55,232 bases of DNA from the NCBI GenBank assembly GCA_016192705.1, contig JACPTQ010000070.1, forward strand, positions 1 to 55,232. Reading direction: 5' to 3'. The notes under the pieces are model-generated. The model was given only the letters and a program-made list of their open reading frames with translations. It was not told the DNA's origin and ran no database searches. The first letter of the stretch is position 1. Each line of letters starts with the position of its first letter. This stretch comes from Deltaproteobacteria bacterium (GTDB lineage: Bacteria; Myxococcota; JACPTQ01). The position numbers were made by a program, and so were the translations under genes. Shown here piece by piece: positions 36,315-44,350 of this stretch.

Positions 36315-37625
36315 TTACGGCGCGGCTTCGAGCGTGCCGGTCGTCGGATTGAGGAGGACGATTTTCCCGAGGCCGTAGCCGGAAAAACTTGCGTTCGAAT
36401 TCTGGAGTGTCACCCAGATGCGATCGCCGACCACGGCCATCGCGTTCGCGCGGGGGAGATTCCCGCTACACCCGAACGAGACGAGGTCGATCGACTTCGT
36501 AACGGCGCCGCTCGTCGTGTTCATCGCGATAAGGCCGCCGTCGGGAACGTTGAGAAGCGACACCCAAATCTCGCTCGCGGAGCCTGCGACAACATCAACG
36601 GGATTGGAGCCCTGCCCGGTCGAAAAATCCTTGTTGTTGGTTGTTCCTGTTATTTTCGCCGTCTCAAAGTTGTTCGCGGGGTCGAGGAACTGCACGCTGT
36701 TTGTGCCGGTGCCGCCGCTCATTCCGTTTCGATTAAGAACGATGGCGTGGGTCGTGGTGCCGCTCGATACGACACGCACGACCGGGTCGAGCCCAATCGT
36801 GCTTGTCGCGAGCGATAATGTGCCGAGTGACGCGCCGAGCGTTACGCGTCCGAGCGAACCGATGGAATTGTCGGTCATCGCGATGAGGAGTGTTCCGCCG
36901 TCGGCGGGAAAGACGGCAACCGACTGTGGATTCTTCGATGTCGTGATGAACTCCGACGCGGTTTCCGTATCAGTGGTTGTGTTCACCGAGAGGACGCCGA
37001 TCTGGAATCCGCCGCTGAAGAAACTACATGTGGCGAAGAGTCGCCCTCCGTCGGCGTCGATCGCGAGCTCGCCCATTGTACAGCCGTTGCGCGCGGGACT
37101 CAGGGTTACGGCGGTGACATTCGCGCCCGACATGGGATCGAACCTGTAGATCGCGCTGCCGCTGAAAGACGAGTCGTTGGCTATCGCGTACCCCTTTGTC
37201 GCGGAGGCGACTGCGATCGACGAATACCATCCAACCGTGACGGTCGAGCCTGCGTCCCCACTGACCGACGCCGTCTCCGTGGGCGCGGTGCCGATCGATT
37301 GTTTTGTGGCGGCGCTGATCGCTTGGATACCGGAGTTGCACTCGCGCGACGAAAGACCGCCGCTCGATGCACCCGGTGCGCCGGCAAACGACACGAGAAC
37401 GCGCGTACCGTCAATCGTGGGCGCGATCGCCATGGGATTGATCCCGGGGAGCACGATTGGCTTTACGCTTGCGTCGGGGCCGGCGCACGCGGATGTTCCG
37501 CCATCGGTAACGCAACTGGTGGTAGCGCCAGGATTCGTCGGCGTTCCACTCGAACATGCGGCCATAGAGAGAAGTGCGGTCGTCATAACCAGACTTGTTA
37601 TTTCAGTTGTTCCCATTCGTTTCAT
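36315..37625 (-). CDS. Beta-propeller lipoprotein coupled to btuB (BtuG-like candidate)
   Basis: 436 residues from ATG 37625, preceded by a strong AGGAGAG site. Lipobox A-A-C at Cys24, a Thr/Asp linker, then seven or so beta-propeller-type repeats (~60-436) of YncE/SMP-30-like character: alternating strands such as MAIAPTIDGTRVLVSF, MGELAIDADGGRLFATCSF, PQSVAVFPADGGTLLIAMTD and ANAMAVVGDRIWVTLQN. The gene starts 11 bases after the btuB stop on the same strand, so both should follow the cobalamin riboswitch. This matches the BtuG arrangement of Bacteroidota: a surface propeller lipoprotein that captures B12 and hands it to BtuB. That assignment is inference from context and fold; direct homology was not tested. 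Confidence 0.85.
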   Translation of the reverse strand: MKRMGTTEITSLVMTTALLSMAACSSGTPTNPGATTSCVTDGGTSACAGPDASVKPIVLPGINPMAIAPTIDGTRVLVSFAGAPGASSGGLSSRECNSGIQAISAATKQSIGTAPTETASVSGDAGSTVTVGWYSSIAVASATKGYAIANDSSFSGSAIYRFDPMSGANVTAVTLSPARNGCTMGELAIDADGGRLFATCSFFSGGFQIGVLSVNTTTDTETASEFITTSKNPQSVAVFPADGGTLLIAMTDNSIGSLGRVTLGASLGTLSLATSTIGLDPVVRVVSSGTTTHAIVLNRNGMSGGTGTNSVQFLDPANNFETAKITGTTNNKDFSTGQGSNPVDVVAGSASEIWVSLLNVPDGGLIAMNTTSGAVTKSIDLVSFGCSGNLPRANAMAVVGDRIWVTLQNSNASFSGYGLGKIVLLNPTTGTLEAAP

Positions 37626-37636
37626 CGTCTCTCCTT

Positions 37637-39637
37637 TCAAAAGAGCGCTGTCAGCCGCATTGAAAACGCGAGTCCCGGGAGCGGGATTCCGTAAACATCT
37701 GCGGTTTGGTTGTTGGTCAAATTCTTTATGGCGAGCGAGAATCGGACGGCTTCTTTGTGGGCCACGAGCACACCGAGCGAGTGGATGTTCCGGGCATCGA
37801 GCTCGAAGAGGTTGAGGGTGTCGATGGGGTTTCCTGACAGATGCGTAAACTCGTGAAAGATGTGAAGGGGGCCGCGGCTGAGTGTCGTGCGGGCTCGAAG
37901 CGCGTGCGTTGGACGCGAAGGGATGAGAAGGCCGTAGGTCGCGCCCTGTGTTGCGTTGATCGCGCGCGTCCAGGTGTAGGCGGCTCTCACGGCGATAAAT
38001 CCAAGGCGTCCATTCGCCTCGATTTCAAATCCGCGGAGATCGGCTGCGCCAAAGTTAAATGGCTTCGCGGTCACCGATGAAGTCTGCACAAACTGAATCA
38101 GGTTTTCGGTGACGCCGCGAAAGGTGGCGGCCTCAACGAAAAAAAACCTGGGCACGCGCGTTAAGGTGGCGTCTCCCGAAGTAGGCCATGCAAACCGAAG
38201 CCCCACGTCACCCATGACCCCCGACTCGGGGAGGAGGGTCGCGTTGCCGATGAGGGCCCCTTGGTTACCGAAGAGCTCCGTGAGGTTGGGCGCCCGGTAA
38301 GTCCGCGCGATGTTCGTGCGAATTGTCAGAAAGGGAAACAGACGAAACGCGACACCGATTCGGCCGGAGAGATGCTCCTGCGACGAACTTGGCGATGCGG
38401 TGCCCTGAAGCGGCCCTTGGAGCGTCGCGGAGTCGCGAAGGATCTGCGTCTCGATCGCGGGCGAGATGATGAGGCGATTTGACACAAGCGAAATCTCATC
38501 GGCGAGAGCCAGGCGAACCGTGTGCCGCGTTGCATCGGCGCTCGTCGCGTGCGGGTCGTCGCGGAGGCTCGCGCTGTCGAGTGCATACTCTCCGACGAAT
38601 GCGAGCGTTTGATGCGCGCCCCACACGTAAAGAAGATCGACCGAAGCGCCGCCGCCAGGGAAAACGCCGAAAGCGTCCGACGCGCCGGCACTCATGAAAC
38701 CGTTGGGGTCGGTGAAGTGATCGCGGATGTATCTGAAAAATGGCGCGATGCGGAGATCGAGACGCTTTGCGAGGAAATTTGTTTTTCTGGCTTCAGCGGC
38801 GATGAGCGCTTGCAACGTCGTGAAGCGGGCAACGTTGCGGGATGCGCCACCTTCGGCTGAGTTCACGCCATCGGTCGGGATGCCGTTGTCGCGCGAGAAG
38901 ACGCGACTCCAGAAGGCAAGCGTCCATCCGCGTTTGAGCGTGAGCGTTGCGCGCGTGAGGTTCGTCGCGATGGTGACGTCGTTGTTGTGCCGGCGCGTGA
39001 GGTAGTCGTCGGCGAAGTTTCCCGTGGTGCCGTTGTCGCTTCGGAGTTGGAAATCGCCGTCTGAGCGTTCGAAGCCCGCTGAAACGTCGAGCCGAAGGAC
39101 GCCGACTGAAAGCGTCGCGAATCCGCTTGCGCCCACCGCGCCAAAGGAGCCGCCCCACGCGCTTGCTTCGCCGCGCGAATTTTGGGCCGGGCCTCGTGTG
39201 ACGATGTTGATCGCACCGCCGATGGCCGCACTGCCGAACCGCGGGGGCGCGCCGCCGCGGAATACTTCGATTCGTTCGACTTCGGACAACGCGAAATCGC
39301 CGACGTTGACGGCGCCACCAATCGCGCGGTTGAGCGGCACGCCATCGAGGAAGACCGCGACCTGCTCGGTTGTTGACCCGCGAATGGAGATCGTTGCGAG
39401 GCCACCTGTTCCTTGTGCGCGGAGTGAAACGCCAGCCGCCTCGCGGAGGACGTCGGCGACAGACGCCGCGTGGGTGCTCCAATCGGTGCGCCGAAGGACA
39501 GTCGTGAATGCTGTTTCGTCCGCTGGTTCGCGACGATCGATGGGGCGATCGGCTTCAACGCGGGCGGGCGGAAGATCCGCCGGGGCGTCGGCCGAATTGG
39601 CGGCAAGCGAATAAGAAAGCAGAAACGCGGCCAGCAA
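37637..39637 (-). CDS. btuB: TonB-dependent outer-membrane receptor, probable vitamin B12 receptor BtuB
   Basis: 666 residues. N-terminal signal (LLAAFLLSYSLAANSA-like; a TTG start with an AGAGGA site, as an in-frame stop lies 18 bases upstream and no ATG fits). Plug domain ~50-160: SVADVLREAAGVSLRAQGTGGLATISIRGSTTEQVAVFLDGVPLN...GGAINIVTR. The rest is a 22-strand barrel ending with a C-terminal Phe (MRLTALF). A cobalamin riboswitch in its leader identifies cobalamin or a related corrinoid as the likely substrate. The next gene downstream is the propeller lipoprotein. No tonB-exbBD or btuCDF is present in the window. Confidence 0.93.
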   Translation of the reverse strand: MLAAFLLSYSLAANSADAPADLPPARVEADRPIDRREPADETAFTTVLRRTDWSTHAASVADVLREAAGVSLRAQGTGGLATISIRGSTTEQVAVFLDGVPLNRAIGGAVNVGDFALSEVERIEVFRGGAPPRFGSAAIGGAINIVTRGPAQNSRGEASAWGGSFGAVGASGFATLSVGVLRLDVSAGFERSDGDFQLRSDNGTTGNFADDYLTRRHNNDVTIATNLTRATLTLKRGWTLAFWSRVFSRDNGIPTDGVNSAEGGASRNVARFTTLQALIAAEARKTNFLAKRLDLRIAPFFRYIRDHFTDPNGFMSAGASDAFGVFPGGGASVDLLYVWGAHQTLAFVGEYALDSASLRDDPHATSADATRHTVRLALADEISLVSNRLIISPAIETQILRDSATLQGPLQGTASPSSSQEHLSGRIGVAFRLFPFLTIRTNIARTYRAPNLTELFGNQGALIGNATLLPESGVMGDVGLRFAWPTSGDATLTRVPRFFFVEAATFRGVTENLIQFVQTSSVTAKPFNFGAADLRGFEIEANGRLGFIAVRAAYTWTRAINATQGATYGLLIPSRPTHALRARTTLSRGPLHIFHEFTHLSGNPIDTLNLFELDARNIHSLGVLVAHKEAVRFSLAIKNLTNNQTADVYGIPLPGLAFSMRLTALF

Positions 39638-39642
39638 CGGGC

Positions 39643-39666
39643 GTCCTCTCTTTCACGCGAAGAGGG
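39643..39666 (-). promoter_or_regulatory. btuB ribosome-binding site and possible sequestering hairpin
   Basis: In transcript sense CCCTCTT (39666-39660) can pair with AAGAGAGG (39652-39645), the latter holding the Shine-Dalgarno bases before the TTG start of btuB. The paired arm would hide the ribosome site and could be the switch helix that the riboswitch controls. The hairpin is read from the sequence; its regulatory role is inference. Confidence 0.5.
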
Positions 39667-39702
39667 TTTCGCAATGGCGCCGTGAATTTCGCGACGCCTC
39701 AT

Positions 39703-39905
39703 TGCTCAACGGCAGGTTTCCTGACTTCGGGCGGGGTGGCCGCGATTCAACGAAGCGCGAATCGTCGGGCCTCCCAATCCGTTTCACCTTCCCCGGCGAA
39801 CCGAGTGGTTGTGGCGCTGCCACGGAAACGGACACCCTGACACAGTGGCGGGACCGTGCGAGATTCTCACTCGCTTCCCATGCACCGGTGAGCGGCCGAG
39901 GACTT
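39703..39905 (-). ncRNA. Cobalamin riboswitch upstream of btuB
   Basis: In the direction of transcription the element contains GGTGCATGGGAAGCG (39887-39873), TGAGAATCTCGCACGG, CCCGCCACTGTG (39853-39842) and, about 110 bases on, AGTCAGGAAACCTGCC (39726-39711). These are the B12-box and core elements of the cobalamin riboswitch in their usual order. It lies between the dctM stop (39947) and btuB, so its promoter is either inside the dctM 3' end or the TRAP operon reads through. Ends are approximate; they were set by motif spacing. Confidence 0.95.
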
Positions 39906-39946: not shown

Positions 39947-41860
39947 TTATTTTGCTGGAACAAGCCAGGTCGCGAGGCCCGGAACGTAAGTCACGATGAG
40001 GAGCGCCGCGAGCAAGAGCAAAATGTACGGCAGCGTCGCGCGAAAGATCTCCGGCACCGACTTCTTAAAGAACGATGAAGAGATAAAGAGATTGATGCCG
40101 AACGGCGGCGTCGCGAAGCCGATCTCAAGGTTCACGACGAAAATGATTCCGAGGTGAACGAGATTAATGTTGTAGGCAAACGCCAAGGGAACGATGAGCG
40201 GCGCGACGACAACCAACGCCGAGAAAACATCCATGAGGCAACCAACGATGAGGAGCAAAACGTTCACGGCGAGTAAAAACAGCTCGGGTGATTGGACAAG
40301 ATTTTTGATGAACGCAACGCAGAGGTCGGGAATCTTTTGGTCGGTCATGAACCACGTGAACCCAAAGGCCGCGAGGAGGATGACAAGGATCGACCCGACC
40401 AGTTCCATCGCTTCGACCAAGATCGAGGGCACGTCGCGAAGTTTGATTTCGCGGTGAATAAAGACCTCGACGACAAACGCGTAGACGACGGCGATGGCGG
40501 AAAGGTCGACCGCCGTCACAAAGCCACCGTAGAGACCGACGAGCAGAATCACAGGGAGCAAAAGGGACAGAGCCGCTGACTTGAACGCGGCCCAGAGCTC
40601 GGCGCCCGAGAAACGATCGCGTGTGACGTTGAACTTGTAGCTTGTTCGCGCCGCGTAGATTGCGATGAGCACGACGCATAGGATTCCTGGAAGTACGCCC
40701 GCGATAAAGAGCTCGTTAACACCGACCCTGTACGGAATTTTTGTTCCCGCCATCGCTTGATTCGCGACGATGCTATAAATGATGAGCGGGAGGGACGGTG
40801 GCACGAGAATGCCGATGGCGCCCCCAGTCGTCATGAGGCCAAGGCTGAATCGTTGCGGGTAGTTCGCCGCGACGAGCGCCGGGAAAATGATACCGCCGAT
40901 CGCGATGATCGTGACCGCGGATGAGCCTGTCAGCGCCGCGAAGAGGACGCACGCGGTGAGCGAGGCGACCGCGAGCCCGCCCGGCAAGAAACCAACAAGC
41001 GCGCGCGCAAAACGAACAAGGCGACCACTGATTCCGCCGCGCGTCATGATGGCGCCGGCAATCGTGAAGAGCGGAATCGTGATGACGTCGAGGTGCTTTG
41101 TTACCTTCCAGAATTTCTCTGGGATGGCGGTTGCCTGAGACTTGACGATGCCGACGGCACCCTGTTCGAGGTCGGTGCCCGACGAAAAGATCATTGAGAT
41201 GAAATCGCCGAAGCCGACGCCTGCTTCGATCGCGACATCGGCCGCGAACAGCGCGGCAACGAGCGTCATCGCCATGAACGCGATGAAGAGAGGCGCGCCG
41301 GCCCCCATGAGAATCAAGAACGTTAGGACGACCGCCCACGGACCGAAACCCGCGCTCTTTGACGATTTGGATTCCGTCGCGGCGGCCGATGGCTGTGCTG
41401 CCTGCGGTGTCGCGGTTGTGCCCGTGCCACCATCGACTCCGGCGGTCGCGGCGGTCACTCCGCCGTCTGCACCCGGCTTTGACGCGCCGTCGTCGGTTTC
41501 GACGTCGTCTCTTTCCGTTCCGCCGTCCGCCTCATCTTCGGGTGGCGACTCGGGCTCATCGCGCTCGGGCATCTCCTCTTCGTCCGAATCGCTGGCGCGC
41601 GGAGCGGCACGTTTTGCGGGAACGGGCGCGGGGATTTGACGCAAAGGCGCGGAGGCGCCAAGGGAAGAGGTCTCATTCCTTGCGTCTTTGCTCCTTTGCG
41701 CCTTGGCGTTGAAATCTTCTGCGGTAGCGGGAGCGGAGGCGGGAGCGGGAGCGGGAGCTGCGTTTGTGAAAAGAACGAGTGCGATCGCTAAGAGCCCCGC
41801 CACGATCAGGCGATCACGCTTTTTCAGAGGAAGCTCCTTCGGGCGGCAAGCCCTCAACAT
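39947..41860 (-). CDS. dctM: TRAP transporter large permease DctM with long disordered N-terminal extension
   Basis: Major membrane subunit of a TRAP-type secondary transporter for organic acids, driven by an ion gradient. 637 residues; start uncertain, ATG 41860 overlaps dctQ and alternative non-ATG starts exist near 41820. The DctM domain (~180-637) has the usual many helices with blocks TGSSAVTIIAIGGIIFPAL, GGAIGILVPPSLPLIIYSI and GFATPPFGINLF. Ahead of it are a first helix (~17-33), Ala-Pro repeats, the 96-bp mobile-looking element read in frame (~46-77) and a strongly acidic Glu/Asp-rich stretch to ~175. DctM is normally about 430 residues, so this extension is unusual. Substrate is unknown. 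Confidence 0.92.
   Translation of the reverse strand: MLRACRPKELPLKKRDRLIVAGLLAIALVLFTNAAPAPAPASAPATAEDFNAKAQRSKDARNETSSLGASAPLRQIPAPVPAKRAAPRASDSDEEEMPERDEPESPPEDEADGGTERDDVETDDGASKPGADGGVTAATAGVDGGTGTTATPQAAQPSAAATESKSSKSAGFGPWAVVLTFLILMGAGAPLFIAFMAMTLVAALFAADVAIEAGVGFGDFISMIFSSGTDLEQGAVGIVKSQATAIPEKFWKVTKHLDVITIPLFTIAGAIMTRGGISGRLVRFARALVGFLPGGLAVASLTACVLFAALTGSSAVTIIAIGGIIFPALVAANYPQRFSLGLMTTGGAIGILVPPSLPLIIYSIVANQAMAGTKIPYRVGVNELFIAGVLPGILCVVLIAIYAARTSYKFNVTRDRFSGAELWAAFKSAALSLLLPVILLVGLYGGFVTAVDLSAIAVVYAFVVEVFIHREIKLRDVPSILVEAMELVGSILVILLAAFGFTWFMTDQKIPDLCVAFIKNLVQSPELFLLAVNVLLLIVGCLMDVFSALVVVAPLIVPLAFAYNINLVHLGIIFVVNLEIGFATPPFGINLFISSSFFKKSVPEIFRATLPYILLLLAALLIVTYVPGLATWLVPAK
41629..41724. 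repeat. 96-bp partly palindromic dispersed element, copy 1 (in dctM)
   Basis: Matches 45631-45726 at 90 of 96 positions without gaps, in the same orientation and the same reading frame. Its ends, ACGCAAAGGCGC and CTTTGCGCCTTGGCGT, form an imperfect hairpin. Hexamer tracts flank it. Translated in the dctM frame it gives a NAKAQRSKDARNETSSLG segment. It resembles short palindromic elements that insert in coding regions, but no transposase is linked. Confidence 0.85.
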
Positions 41861-42380
41861 GCGGCATGAAGTGTCTCGCGTCACCCTCAAGCAGCGCCTG
41901 GAAATCCTCCAACCACGCGAGGAAAAAACGCCACGCGAGCATTGCGAATCCGACAACCAAAATGACTTCGAAGACCCAAACCTCAACCTTCCCGTCACCA
42001 AACGGGACCGTCACGTCCGAGCGAATCGCCCGCGCCCTTTCTCCCGCAACGTAAAGGAGCGCGACGCGCGCGAGGAACAGCGTCAAGAGCGTCGCCGCAA
42101 GACCCGAAACAAGCGACAGTGCACCGCGAATCCTCCACGGCATTCGCCCGCCCATCAAGTCGACGACGATGTGCTTTCGGTTCTTAGCCGCGAGGCTCGC
42201 CGCGATGAGCCCGGTCCAAATCATAAGGATTTTCGCCCACTCGTACGCATCCGCCGACGACGCGAACCGCCCGATGAGCACCGCAGCGGTCAGCCCAAGC
42301 GCCCCGACGACAAGAAGTCCCTTCTCGACAACGGCGATCCATCCATCGAGCGTTCGGAGCGCCTTGATGATCGCCTTCAC
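41814..42380 (-). CDS. dctQ: TRAP transporter small permease DctQ
   Basis: 188 residues with four membrane helices (LLVVGALGLTAAVLIGRF, WAKILMIWTGLIAASLAA, ALSLVSGLAATLLTLFL, WVFEVILVVGFAMLAWRFFLAWL) and the family motif AKNRKHIVVDLMGGRMP. GTG start overlapping the dctP stop (GTGA). The C-terminal tail is polar. Partners are DctM and DctP of the same operon. Confidence 0.93.
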   Translation of the reverse strand: MKAIIKALRTLDGWIAVVEKGLLVVGALGLTAAVLIGRFASSADAYEWAKILMIWTGLIAASLAAKNRKHIVVDLMGGRMPWRIRGALSLVSGLAATLLTLFLARVALLYVAGERARAIRSDVTVPFGDGKVEVWVFEVILVVGFAMLAWRFFLAWLEDFQALLEGDARHFMPHVEGLPPEGASSEKA

Positions 42381-43384
42381 AGCTTCCCAGCTCGGCAGTC
42401 TTTCACGCCCTGTCGAACCTTGTTGTACAGCGCCTCCGGGATCACACCCGACGAAACCAACTTCGGCCCGACGCCCTTGAGCGCCGTCCGAAACGCCTTT
42501 CGCTCATCCGACGTCAGCCTCACGATCTGAATCCCATTTTCCGTAAACTCTTTAAACAACTTCTTATCGATCCCGCGAACATCGCGCCGCGCGCGCTTCT
42601 GCAAATCTTCTTTCCCTTTGAGAACAATCTCCTTCAAATCTTCCGGCAGTTTGTCCCAGAACTTTTGGTCGAACACAACAGCCGCTGGCTGATACACGTG
42701 ATCGCTGTCGGTCCAATATTTCACCTGCGTCGTCCACTGCGCCGCCGATCCAAAAATCGGCGTCGTCGCGAAACCCTTCACGAGCCCCGTTTGCAGCGAC
42801 GTGAGCACCTGCGTCGTGTCGAGAGGTTTCGGCGACGCGCCGAGCGCCTCAATAACCGCCTTCGCGACATCGCTCTCATACGCATACATCGGCTCATCCT
42901 TGAAGTCGTCTGGCGACCTCAAAAACTTTTCTTTGTGCGCGAAATCGATCCAGCCGTTTTCCGCCCAAACGTAAAGGTAAAGCCCCTTCGCCGTAAGCAA
43001 CTTCGACAAATCGTCCCACACGACCTTGTCCATCACGCAGTCGGCATCTTTGGTTCGCGGAAACATAAACGGAATCTCAAGCACCTGCAGCTCAGGCACC
43101 ACGCTCGAGATTCCACCCGTCGAAAACCCACCGCCCTGGAGGCGCCCATTCCGTATCTCGGACAGCATCTCCTTTTCGTCGCCGCGCTGACCATTCAAGT
43201 AAAGGCGGACCTTGATCCGCCCGCCCGACTGCTTCTCAACGCGCCGCTTAAAGTTTTTCAAGATTCGTGACCATGGCGTGTTGTCGGGCGCGAGCGTTCC
43301 GAACTTCATGATGTAGGTTTCAGCGGACGCCGGTGTGGCAAGCCCAATCAGCGAAACGACGAAGATGGCAGCGACTTTTTTCAT
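42377..43384 (-). CDS. dctP: TRAP transporter substrate-binding protein DctP
   Basis: 335 residues, ATG with GAGGGGAAAG-type ribosome site. Signal peptide (VAAIFVVSLIGLATPASA), then the periplasmic DctP/TeaA fold: MKFGTLAPDNTPWSRILKNFKRRVEKQSGGRIKVRLYLNGQRGDEKEMLSEI, PFMFPRTKD, KFLRSPDDFKDEPMYAY, GFATTPIFGSAAQW and the Q-K-F-W-D-K-L-P helix are typical. The binding-site Arg normally in the RMP motif is not obvious in KFLRSPDDF...MYAYES, so the ligand may be unlike C4-dicarboxylates. Order in operon is TatT, DctP, DctQ, DctM. Confidence 0.93.
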   Translation of the reverse strand: MKKVAAIFVVSLIGLATPASAETYIMKFGTLAPDNTPWSRILKNFKRRVEKQSGGRIKVRLYLNGQRGDEKEMLSEIRNGRLQGGGFSTGGISSVVPELQVLEIPFMFPRTKDADCVMDKVVWDDLSKLLTAKGLYLYVWAENGWIDFAHKEKFLRSPDDFKDEPMYAYESDVAKAVIEALGASPKPLDTTQVLTSLQTGLVKGFATTPIFGSAAQWTTQVKYWTDSDHVYQPAAVVFDQKFWDKLPEDLKEIVLKGKEDLQKRARRDVRGIDKKLFKEFTENGIQIVRLTSDERKAFRTALKGVGPKLVSSGVIPEALYNKVRQGVKDCRAGKL

Positions 43385-43393
43385 CTCTTTCCC

Positions 43394-43442
43394 CTCAACT
43401 CTTTGTTCCTAACTGCGAACTGTTGACTGTCAACTGTCGACT
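43394..43442 (-). repeat. Seven-base tandem repeat between tatT and dctP
   Basis: Plus strand reads CTCAACT CTTTGTT CCTAACT GCGAACT GTTGACT GTCAACT GTCGACT: seven units of 7 bases, most ending ACT. Heptad tandem repeats are known in some bacterial intergenic regions. It lies directly before the dctP ribosome site and also contains the small palindrome GTTGAC-T-GTCAAC. Confidence 0.7.
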
Positions 43443-43444
43443 CC

Positions 43445-44350
43445 TCAAAAATACTTCTCGACGTTTTTCAGCATCTCGGCCGCGCGCTTTTTTGCGACCA
43501 TGTTTTCGAGGCGGTACGGGACACTCGCATCGTCGGCCGCCTTAACGATAAACTCAAGCTGCTCCTTAAAGAGCGCCTGGTCATCGGCGTACGTCGCGTA
43601 ATATTCCGCGTACAAGAGGCGATTCTCGAGGAAGTTTGGCGCAATTTGGATCGCCTTCAAGAAATGTTGGCGCGCGCGCTTCGGATTCTGGCCAGCGAAT
43701 TTTGGAATCTTGAGGAAATAGGCACCGAGGAACCGGTGAACGCCGCCGAAGTTCGCACCCGGATTGAGTTTCCGCGCGCGGTCGACAATCGCTTTAACCT
43801 TGGGGATGTCGATGGCAACCTTTGTGACGCCCATGAGCTCGCCCCAGCGGCCCCAATTTGACGCCGTCCAAAGGAGCGCCTCGACGTGATCCGCGTCGAC
43901 GAGCTCAACAGCCGCCTGGTATTTCGCGCCGGATTCCATCGCGCGCGCGAAGCGGGCGTTGGTCGCGAGCGCTCGGAGGCCGTATTCGCGCCCTTTGAAG
44001 AAAAAGCCTTTCTTGATTTCATTGACGCGGTCTTTTTCCTTTTCGTCGTCACCCTTTGACGCATCGCCATTTGTGAACGCGTAGGCGAGTGAGTAATACG
44101 CCTTGGCGAGCTGCGTGAGCGCTTTTTGGTTGACCGGGTCGAGTTTGACGGCTTCTTCAAAGAGTTGAATTGCGCGTCTGAGCTCCGCTTCGATGTGGCG
44201 ACTCGCGTTGGCCTTATCGGCATCCGCGAGCAGCGTCGCAACGCGCGCCTCTTCGTCGGCCGTCATTTTTCGCGCTGCGGTGCCGCTTCCGGCGCACGCG
44301 ACGAACAACAAGGCAAAAGCCAATGCCCACTTCATTTCCATCATCATCAT
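43445..44350 (-). CDS. TRAP transporter TatT-family protein
   Basis: 301-residue lipoprotein-like protein (signal peptide ending VACAG, Cys ~19). The mature part is a TPR-like helical domain: RRAIQLFEEAVKLDPVNQKALTQLAKAYYSLAYAFTNGD, GRWGELMGVTKVAIDIPKVKAIVDRARKLNPGANFGGVHRFLGAYF and LLYAEYYATYADDQALFKEQLEFI match the TatT (T component of TRAP transporters) family, trimers thought to cooperate with DctP-type proteins. Four tandem ATGs start it, with AGGGGAG just upstream. The stop of the preceding FlhB-domain gene overlaps its start (ATGA). Confidence 0.92.
   Translation of the reverse strand: MMMMEMKWALAFALLFVACAGSGTAARKMTADEEARVATLLADADKANASRHIEAELRRAIQLFEEAVKLDPVNQKALTQLAKAYYSLAYAFTNGDASKGDDEKEKDRVNEIKKGFFFKGREYGLRALATNARFARAMESGAKYQAAVELVDADHVEALLWTASNWGRWGELMGVTKVAIDIPKVKAIVDRARKLNPGANFGGVHRFLGAYFLKIPKFAGQNPKRARQHFLKAIQIAPNFLENRLLYAEYYATYADDQALFKEQLEFIVKAADDASVPYRLENMVAKKRAAEMLKNVEKYF

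Follow-up and report, generated by a model that had tools for sequence, protein, structure and literature searches.

Does lipoprotein-assisted uptake of vitamin B12 (cobalamin) exist outside Bacteroidota? The question is raised by a unit of three elements in a Deltaproteobacteria bacterium of the phylum Myxococcota (assembly GCA_016192705.1, contig JACPTQ010000070.1, positions 1 to 55,232; this whole stretch is called the window here). A cobalamin riboswitch, a btuB-like receptor gene and a lipoprotein gene all lie on the minus strand within 36315-39905. The first-pass annotation, made from the sequence alone, had compared the lipoprotein with BtuG, the surface beta-propeller lipoprotein that caps BtuB in Bacteroidota, and had allowed that the resemblance might be convergent. 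The present analysis makes it likely that this myxococcotal unit is an operon for B12 uptake by a pair of the BtuB-BtuG type, and the family to which the lipoprotein belongs is, as judged by profiles and models, most probably homologous to Bacteroidota BtuG.

BtuG was found only in Bacteroidetes by Wexler 2018 (PMC6143338), using a BlastP cut-off of 1e-10 on 313 gut genomes, and lipoprotein-capped TonB transporters were described as seemingly exclusive to Bacteroidetes by Abellon-Ruiz 2023 (PMC10404256). No report of BtuG outside Bacteroidota was found in the open-access literature (subscription papers and preprints being outside its scope); the sole co-mention with Myxococcota or Deltaproteobacteria concerned DUF4465, which occurs in Myxococcota too (PMC13398666). 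On the basis of sequence comparison, the new element is an accessory lipoprotein of the BtuG type from beyond Bacteroidota, some members of which are permuted, and the phylum-wide form of this claim is stronger than that of the first-pass annotation.

Conservation of the riboswitch-receptor-propeller order

Weak relatives of the window lipoprotein were detected in four genomes of the phylum, two of them just downstream of cobalamin riboswitches, and five close ones were returned by a profile search of genome contigs, every one of them from a bin labelled Myxococcota, Myxococcales or 'Deltaproteobacteria'. For the first survey, the sequence following riboswitches across the phylum, mostly 5-8 kb per locus (shorter at contig ends), was scanned with receptor and propeller profiles. 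After exclusion of the window's own locus and removal of duplicates and of loci picked via the lipoprotein, 74 loci were counted. A btuB-like receptor was present in 27 of them, and in 24 of these 27 a propeller-family open reading frame lay directly behind it, whereas no propeller was found at any of the 47 riboswitch loci devoid of a receptor (24/27 vs 0/47, Fisher 1.7e-16). This result rules out chance adjacency of propeller and btuB. The three exceptions comprise two contig ends (L070 and L072) and one locus (L055) with the lipoprotein ahead of the receptor. The propeller profiles had been built from first-batch loci, and the second batch, retrieved once those first profile members had been selected, is the cleaner test; there a propeller accompanied the receptor at 8 of 8 receptor loci.

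In the reverse direction, the family was found by profile search in 142 of 195 genomes, and each of 20 propeller-selected loci carried a receptor directly upstream. The adjacency covers about 20 families of the phylum, with a lipobox in nearly all relatives and a cobalamin riboswitch ahead of most pairs. Retention of the lipoprotein beside btuB in relatives, on which the first-pass annotation had staked its proposal, is thus established by 24/27 receptor-bearing riboswitch loci and 20/20 propeller-selected loci. The conserved order suggests that a B12 surface lid is not confined to Bacteroidota.

Several variations on this layout were observed. In large myxobacterial genomes (L163) the order is riboswitch, btuB, propeller and a second riboswitch, and at L042 the operon extends into btuC-, btuD- and btuF-like genes. 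Five btuB-propeller pairs (L172, L173, L174, L176 and L177) have no riboswitch above the Rfam threshold in the fetched stretch, and their regulation may differ. Directly upstream of btuB, L077 (2160-3827), L078 (2828-3832) and L079 (2817-3797) encode an extra secreted protein or lipoprotein ending ...SAGFDLDA(I/V)A(V/A)L..., a candidate corrinoid-binding surface protein. These proteins gave no specific Pfam match, EGF-like repeats being present in L077 only, and the L078 copy had no match in the PDB. A cysteine-rich stalk (NCBIfam NF041328, MXAN_6577-like) stands ahead of the propeller in the large myxobacterial genomes and in certain other families, where it may act as a long tether; loci of this kind include L163, L164, L166, L167, L181, L182, L071, L076 and L105.

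The corresponding elements of the window are as follows.

39694..39904, minus strand: cobalamin riboswitch aptamer (RF00174; Rfam cmscan, 62.5 bits, E 3.9e-13)
39620..39693, minus strand: probable expression platform between the aptamer and the btuB start (weak, from fold and sequence)
37637..39637, minus strand: btuB-like TonB-dependent receptor, 666 amino acids (aa), TTG start (Pfam Plug and TonB barrel; TIGR01779)
37629..37636, minus strand: Shine-Dalgarno sequence AAGGAGAG of the lipoprotein gene, within the 11 bases between the btuB stop and the ATG
36315..37625, minus strand: BtuG-like propeller lipoprotein of 436 aa (lipobox LSMAAC; placed in the family by a 61-bit match to the rotated profile)

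The riboswitch match spans the full model (1-189) at 62.5 bits, above the gathering threshold of 31.5, and is the only cobalamin riboswitch returned by a scan of the genome. The first-pass annotation, which had placed this riboswitch ahead of a TonB receptor, held on every point open to checking, with all parts located where it had put them. The conserved riboswitch blocks that it named are readable in the sequence, the receptor contains the Plug (1.5e-19) and TonB barrel (1.1e-26) domains of Pfam, and the TGA stop of the receptor is separated from the ATG of the lipoprotein gene by 11 bases with the strong ribosome site AAGGAGAG right before the ATG. The downstream gene does encode a lipoprotein, its signal peptide ending in LSMAAC with the lipobox cysteine at Cys24 (codon 37554-37556). 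Between the aptamer and btuB, GAGCAAUG is predicted to pair with the start region CGUUGCU, forming a helix over the start codon with a z-score of just -1.8 (fold of 39620-39725), and no terminator was found on the riboswitch strand. A firm expression platform was not supportable on these data.

The receptor scored 111.5 bits against TIGR01779, the model of E. coli BtuB, well under the equivalog cut-off of 599.7, and its nearest solved structures in a PDB sequence search are BtuB proteins. With a profile of 12 such receptors, BtuB1 from the BtuB1-BtuG1 complex of Bacteroides was the top PDB match, full-length and at 1.9e-54, slightly ahead of E. coli BtuB (2.3e-50), and the receptors from the two remaining BtuBG complexes ranked high. 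E. coli BtuB is likewise a TonB receptor under a cobalamin riboswitch, but E. coli has no accessory lipoprotein. The window gene apparently begins at TTG (39637), with an in-frame stop just upstream and a signal peptide devoid of basic residues.

Relationship of the lipoproteins to BtuG

A profile of ten family lipoproteins was searched against all PDB sequences, and the nine best distinct sequences were all BtuG (3.3e-7 to 2.4e-6). With a nineteen-member profile the ten best were again all BtuG, headed by BtuG3 of the BtuB3G3 complex (4.9e-10), which aligned colinearly over the whole length. Designed propellers, two entries aligning in parallel with BtuG1, hydrazine synthase beta and YncE ranked below. 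An AlphaFold2 model of the family protein from L077 (= L038) reached a predicted local distance difference test score (pLDDT) of 83.8 and a predicted template modelling score (pTM) of 0.83. When this model was compared with the PDB, an archaeal YVTN propeller ranked first and BtuG chains occupied ranks 2-15, with a target-normalised template modelling score of about 0.7 for most; identity in the fold alignment of the family with BtuG was 13-15%. The structure prediction that the first-pass annotation had called for therefore gave a propeller for this family member, with BtuG making up nearly all of its top PDB matches. Mature family proteins were acidic in 39 of 39 examined (median charge -18), as is BtuG2 (charge -18; PMC10404256). 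The mature window lipoprotein has a charge of -8.

Several observations weigh against the BtuG-type reading. Propellers are repeat proteins, for which E-values may be inflated, and the best PDB match of the stalk-bearing Myxococcaceae-type subfamily is the generic propeller 1l0q, with BtuG1 only after it. The window lipoprotein alone gave nothing significant in Pfam, NCBIfam or the PDB, and nothing useful in the plasmid search. Its own model, obtained with correctly placed relative fragments, is a modest one (all-beta, pLDDT 66.7, pTM 0.74) and matches mainly generic propellers, BtuG being absent from the top 50. Where the nearest relatives have an acidic motif, ADxDGxPE, the window protein reads GCSGNLPRA. 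Its sequence from the lipobox cysteine is CSSGTP, so that the Bacteroidota surface-export signal, which has been described as exclusive to Bacteroidetes (PMC6143338), is absent.

The propeller repeats that the first-pass annotation had read in the mature protein could not be demonstrated from that protein's own sequence; they follow instead from homology to the family and from the all-beta model. On sequence grounds, the window lipoprotein appears to be a divergent family member. The proposed likeness to BtuG is supported by family profile, fold and gene order, and only the suggestion of convergence loses ground: homology is the likelier explanation, because BtuG is the best PDB family by profile and the best match of the partner receptor is Bacteroides BtuB1.

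The known BtuG proteins (BT1954, BT2095 and BT1490; PDB 8bmy, 8okv, 8p97, 8blw and 3dsm) are likewise acidic propeller lipoproteins encoded beside btuB at cobalamin-riboswitch loci. The BtuG propeller has seven blades; of the two models made here, that of the family member is a propeller and that of the window protein is propeller-like. They differ in belonging to another phylum, and the window copy is permuted and lacks the Bacteroidota export signal; a role as corrinoid-binding lid would be carried over by analogy. BtuH and DUF4465 (BtuJ) are also accessory lipoproteins that bind B12, with folds that differ from the propeller. Membership in either group was rejected, as neither model matches the window protein or the relatives examined.

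Circular permutation of the propeller

End-to-end alignment of the relatives with the window protein works only once circular permutation is allowed for. Its two halves are as follows.

36888..37460, minus strand: N-terminal half of the window propeller (aa 56-246), equal to the C-terminal half of relatives
36315..36887, minus strand: C-terminal half of the window propeller (aa 247-436), equal to the N-terminal half of relatives

When fragments of the relatives were aligned separately, the C-terminal fragments of five relatives fell on window residues of about 63-236 and the N-terminal fragments on 253-425. The family profile rotated by roughly half its length gave a single continuous match to the window protein at 61 bits, compared with 38 bits unrotated, whereas members from five other loci scored best essentially unrotated. 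The most conserved block (GSNPxD...IDL...LPRA...VTLQ) stands at aa 338-410, in the C-terminal half of the window propeller. These alignments show that the window lipoprotein is a circular permutant with its halves swapped relative to the common order. The blade order of the family is colinear with BtuG3, so the window protein, rotated by about half, differs from BtuG in this respect. Because of the permutation, the lipid tether would meet the propeller about half a turn from its position in relatives.

A second, different rotation was detected at L067 (2409-3503) and L075 (4409-5509) relative to their own subfamily B, the L075 protein scoring 149 vs 114 bits. Alignment indicates that this permutation is independent of that in the window. 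Such natural permutants could serve as a test of the hinge-and-lid model, since the tether joins the propeller elsewhere.

Proposed uptake mechanism and alternatives

The template for the proposed mechanism is the pedal-bin model of BtuBG (PMC10404256). Judging from the riboswitch and gene order, scarce cobalamin would permit joint synthesis of BtuB and the lipoprotein. The lipoprotein, a predicted beta-propeller attached to the outer membrane through its N-terminal lipid, may bind corrinoids and adjoin or cap BtuB, and would then pass them to BtuB for TonB-driven import, as BtuG does. We infer corrinoid binding, outer-surface location, contact with BtuB, hand-over of B12 and co-regulation by cobalamin on these grounds.

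Import would suit the host. Construction of the full corrin ring requires several tetrapyrrole methylases. The genome contains two tetrapyrrole methylase genes, with no CbiL above cut-off, so the host is apparently unable to make the ring and probably imports corrinoids. It also holds eight matches to B12-binding domains, one strong FecCD permease (a candidate BtuC) and seven TonB-receptor plugs in all.

The weakest step of the mechanism is surface exposure, since the window protein lacks the export signal of Bacteroidota. In Gram-negative bacteria, most lipoproteins of the outer membrane face the periplasm. Both points favour a lipoprotein that lies on the periplasmic side of this membrane and aids BtuB from inside, either as an assembly partner or by transferring corrinoids to BtuF. 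We consider this arrangement unlikely: the nearest relatives by sequence and fold are the external BtuG lids, and Myxococcus does have lipoproteins at its surface, e.g. CglB (PMC12288465).

It is more doubtful still that the pair imports some other large ligand (another corrinoid, a tetrapyrrole or a siderophore), with a propeller role nearer that of XusB. XusB (DUF4374; PMC13142918) is a Bacteroides lipoprotein with a seven-bladed propeller and a TonB receptor, and it binds siderophores. Siderophore-receptor models do match the btuB-like receptors, and the only plasmid hit obtained with a family member is a lipoprotein from Bacteroidota, encoded beside a TonB receptor and a gene resembling those of nonribosomal peptide synthetases (NRPS). 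The cobalamin riboswitch ahead of most pairs and the continuation of the L042 operon into btuCDF-like genes, however, point to B12. The Bacteroides structure 3fgb was reached in the profile search at E 0.059, eight orders of magnitude weaker than BtuG, and DUF4374 had no Pfam match in the window protein or the family relatives examined. Finally, a generic surface protein standing beside btuB by accident, with no role in B12 uptake, would fit the commonness of propellers and the want of a specific match for the window protein alone, but is very unlikely given adjacency across about 20 families and its absence at riboswitch loci without a receptor.

If B12 uptake through a BtuB-BtuG-type pair is correct, uptake assisted by lipoproteins would be a strategy of wider occurrence, with a counterpart across the phylum Myxococcota, and export of lipoproteins to the surface without the Bacteroidota signal would become a testable question. 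There is perhaps an even chance that BtuB with a propeller lid is an ancient or widely transferred machine of Bacteroidota and Myxococcota, that Myxococcota use another route to the surface, and that the lid has been permuted at least twice (in the window and in the L067/L075 lineages), the position of the tether being free to change.

The plasmid locus (L132, 23-6855; Phocaeicola massiliensis plasmid OY726067.1, from a gut Bacteroidota) carries four genes in succession, for an NRPS-like protein with a single module, a phosphopantetheinyl transferase, a TonB receptor and a lipoprotein that resembles a propeller, the last with no Pfam match. Bacteroidota are not known as siderophore makers (PMC13142918). 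In the window, a tripartite ATP-independent periplasmic (TRAP) transporter cluster (39947-44350, minus strand) directly precedes the riboswitch, which is on that strand too, and encodes DctM, DctQ, DctP and a TAtT T-component; the N-terminal part of its DctM is unusually long and of low complexity.

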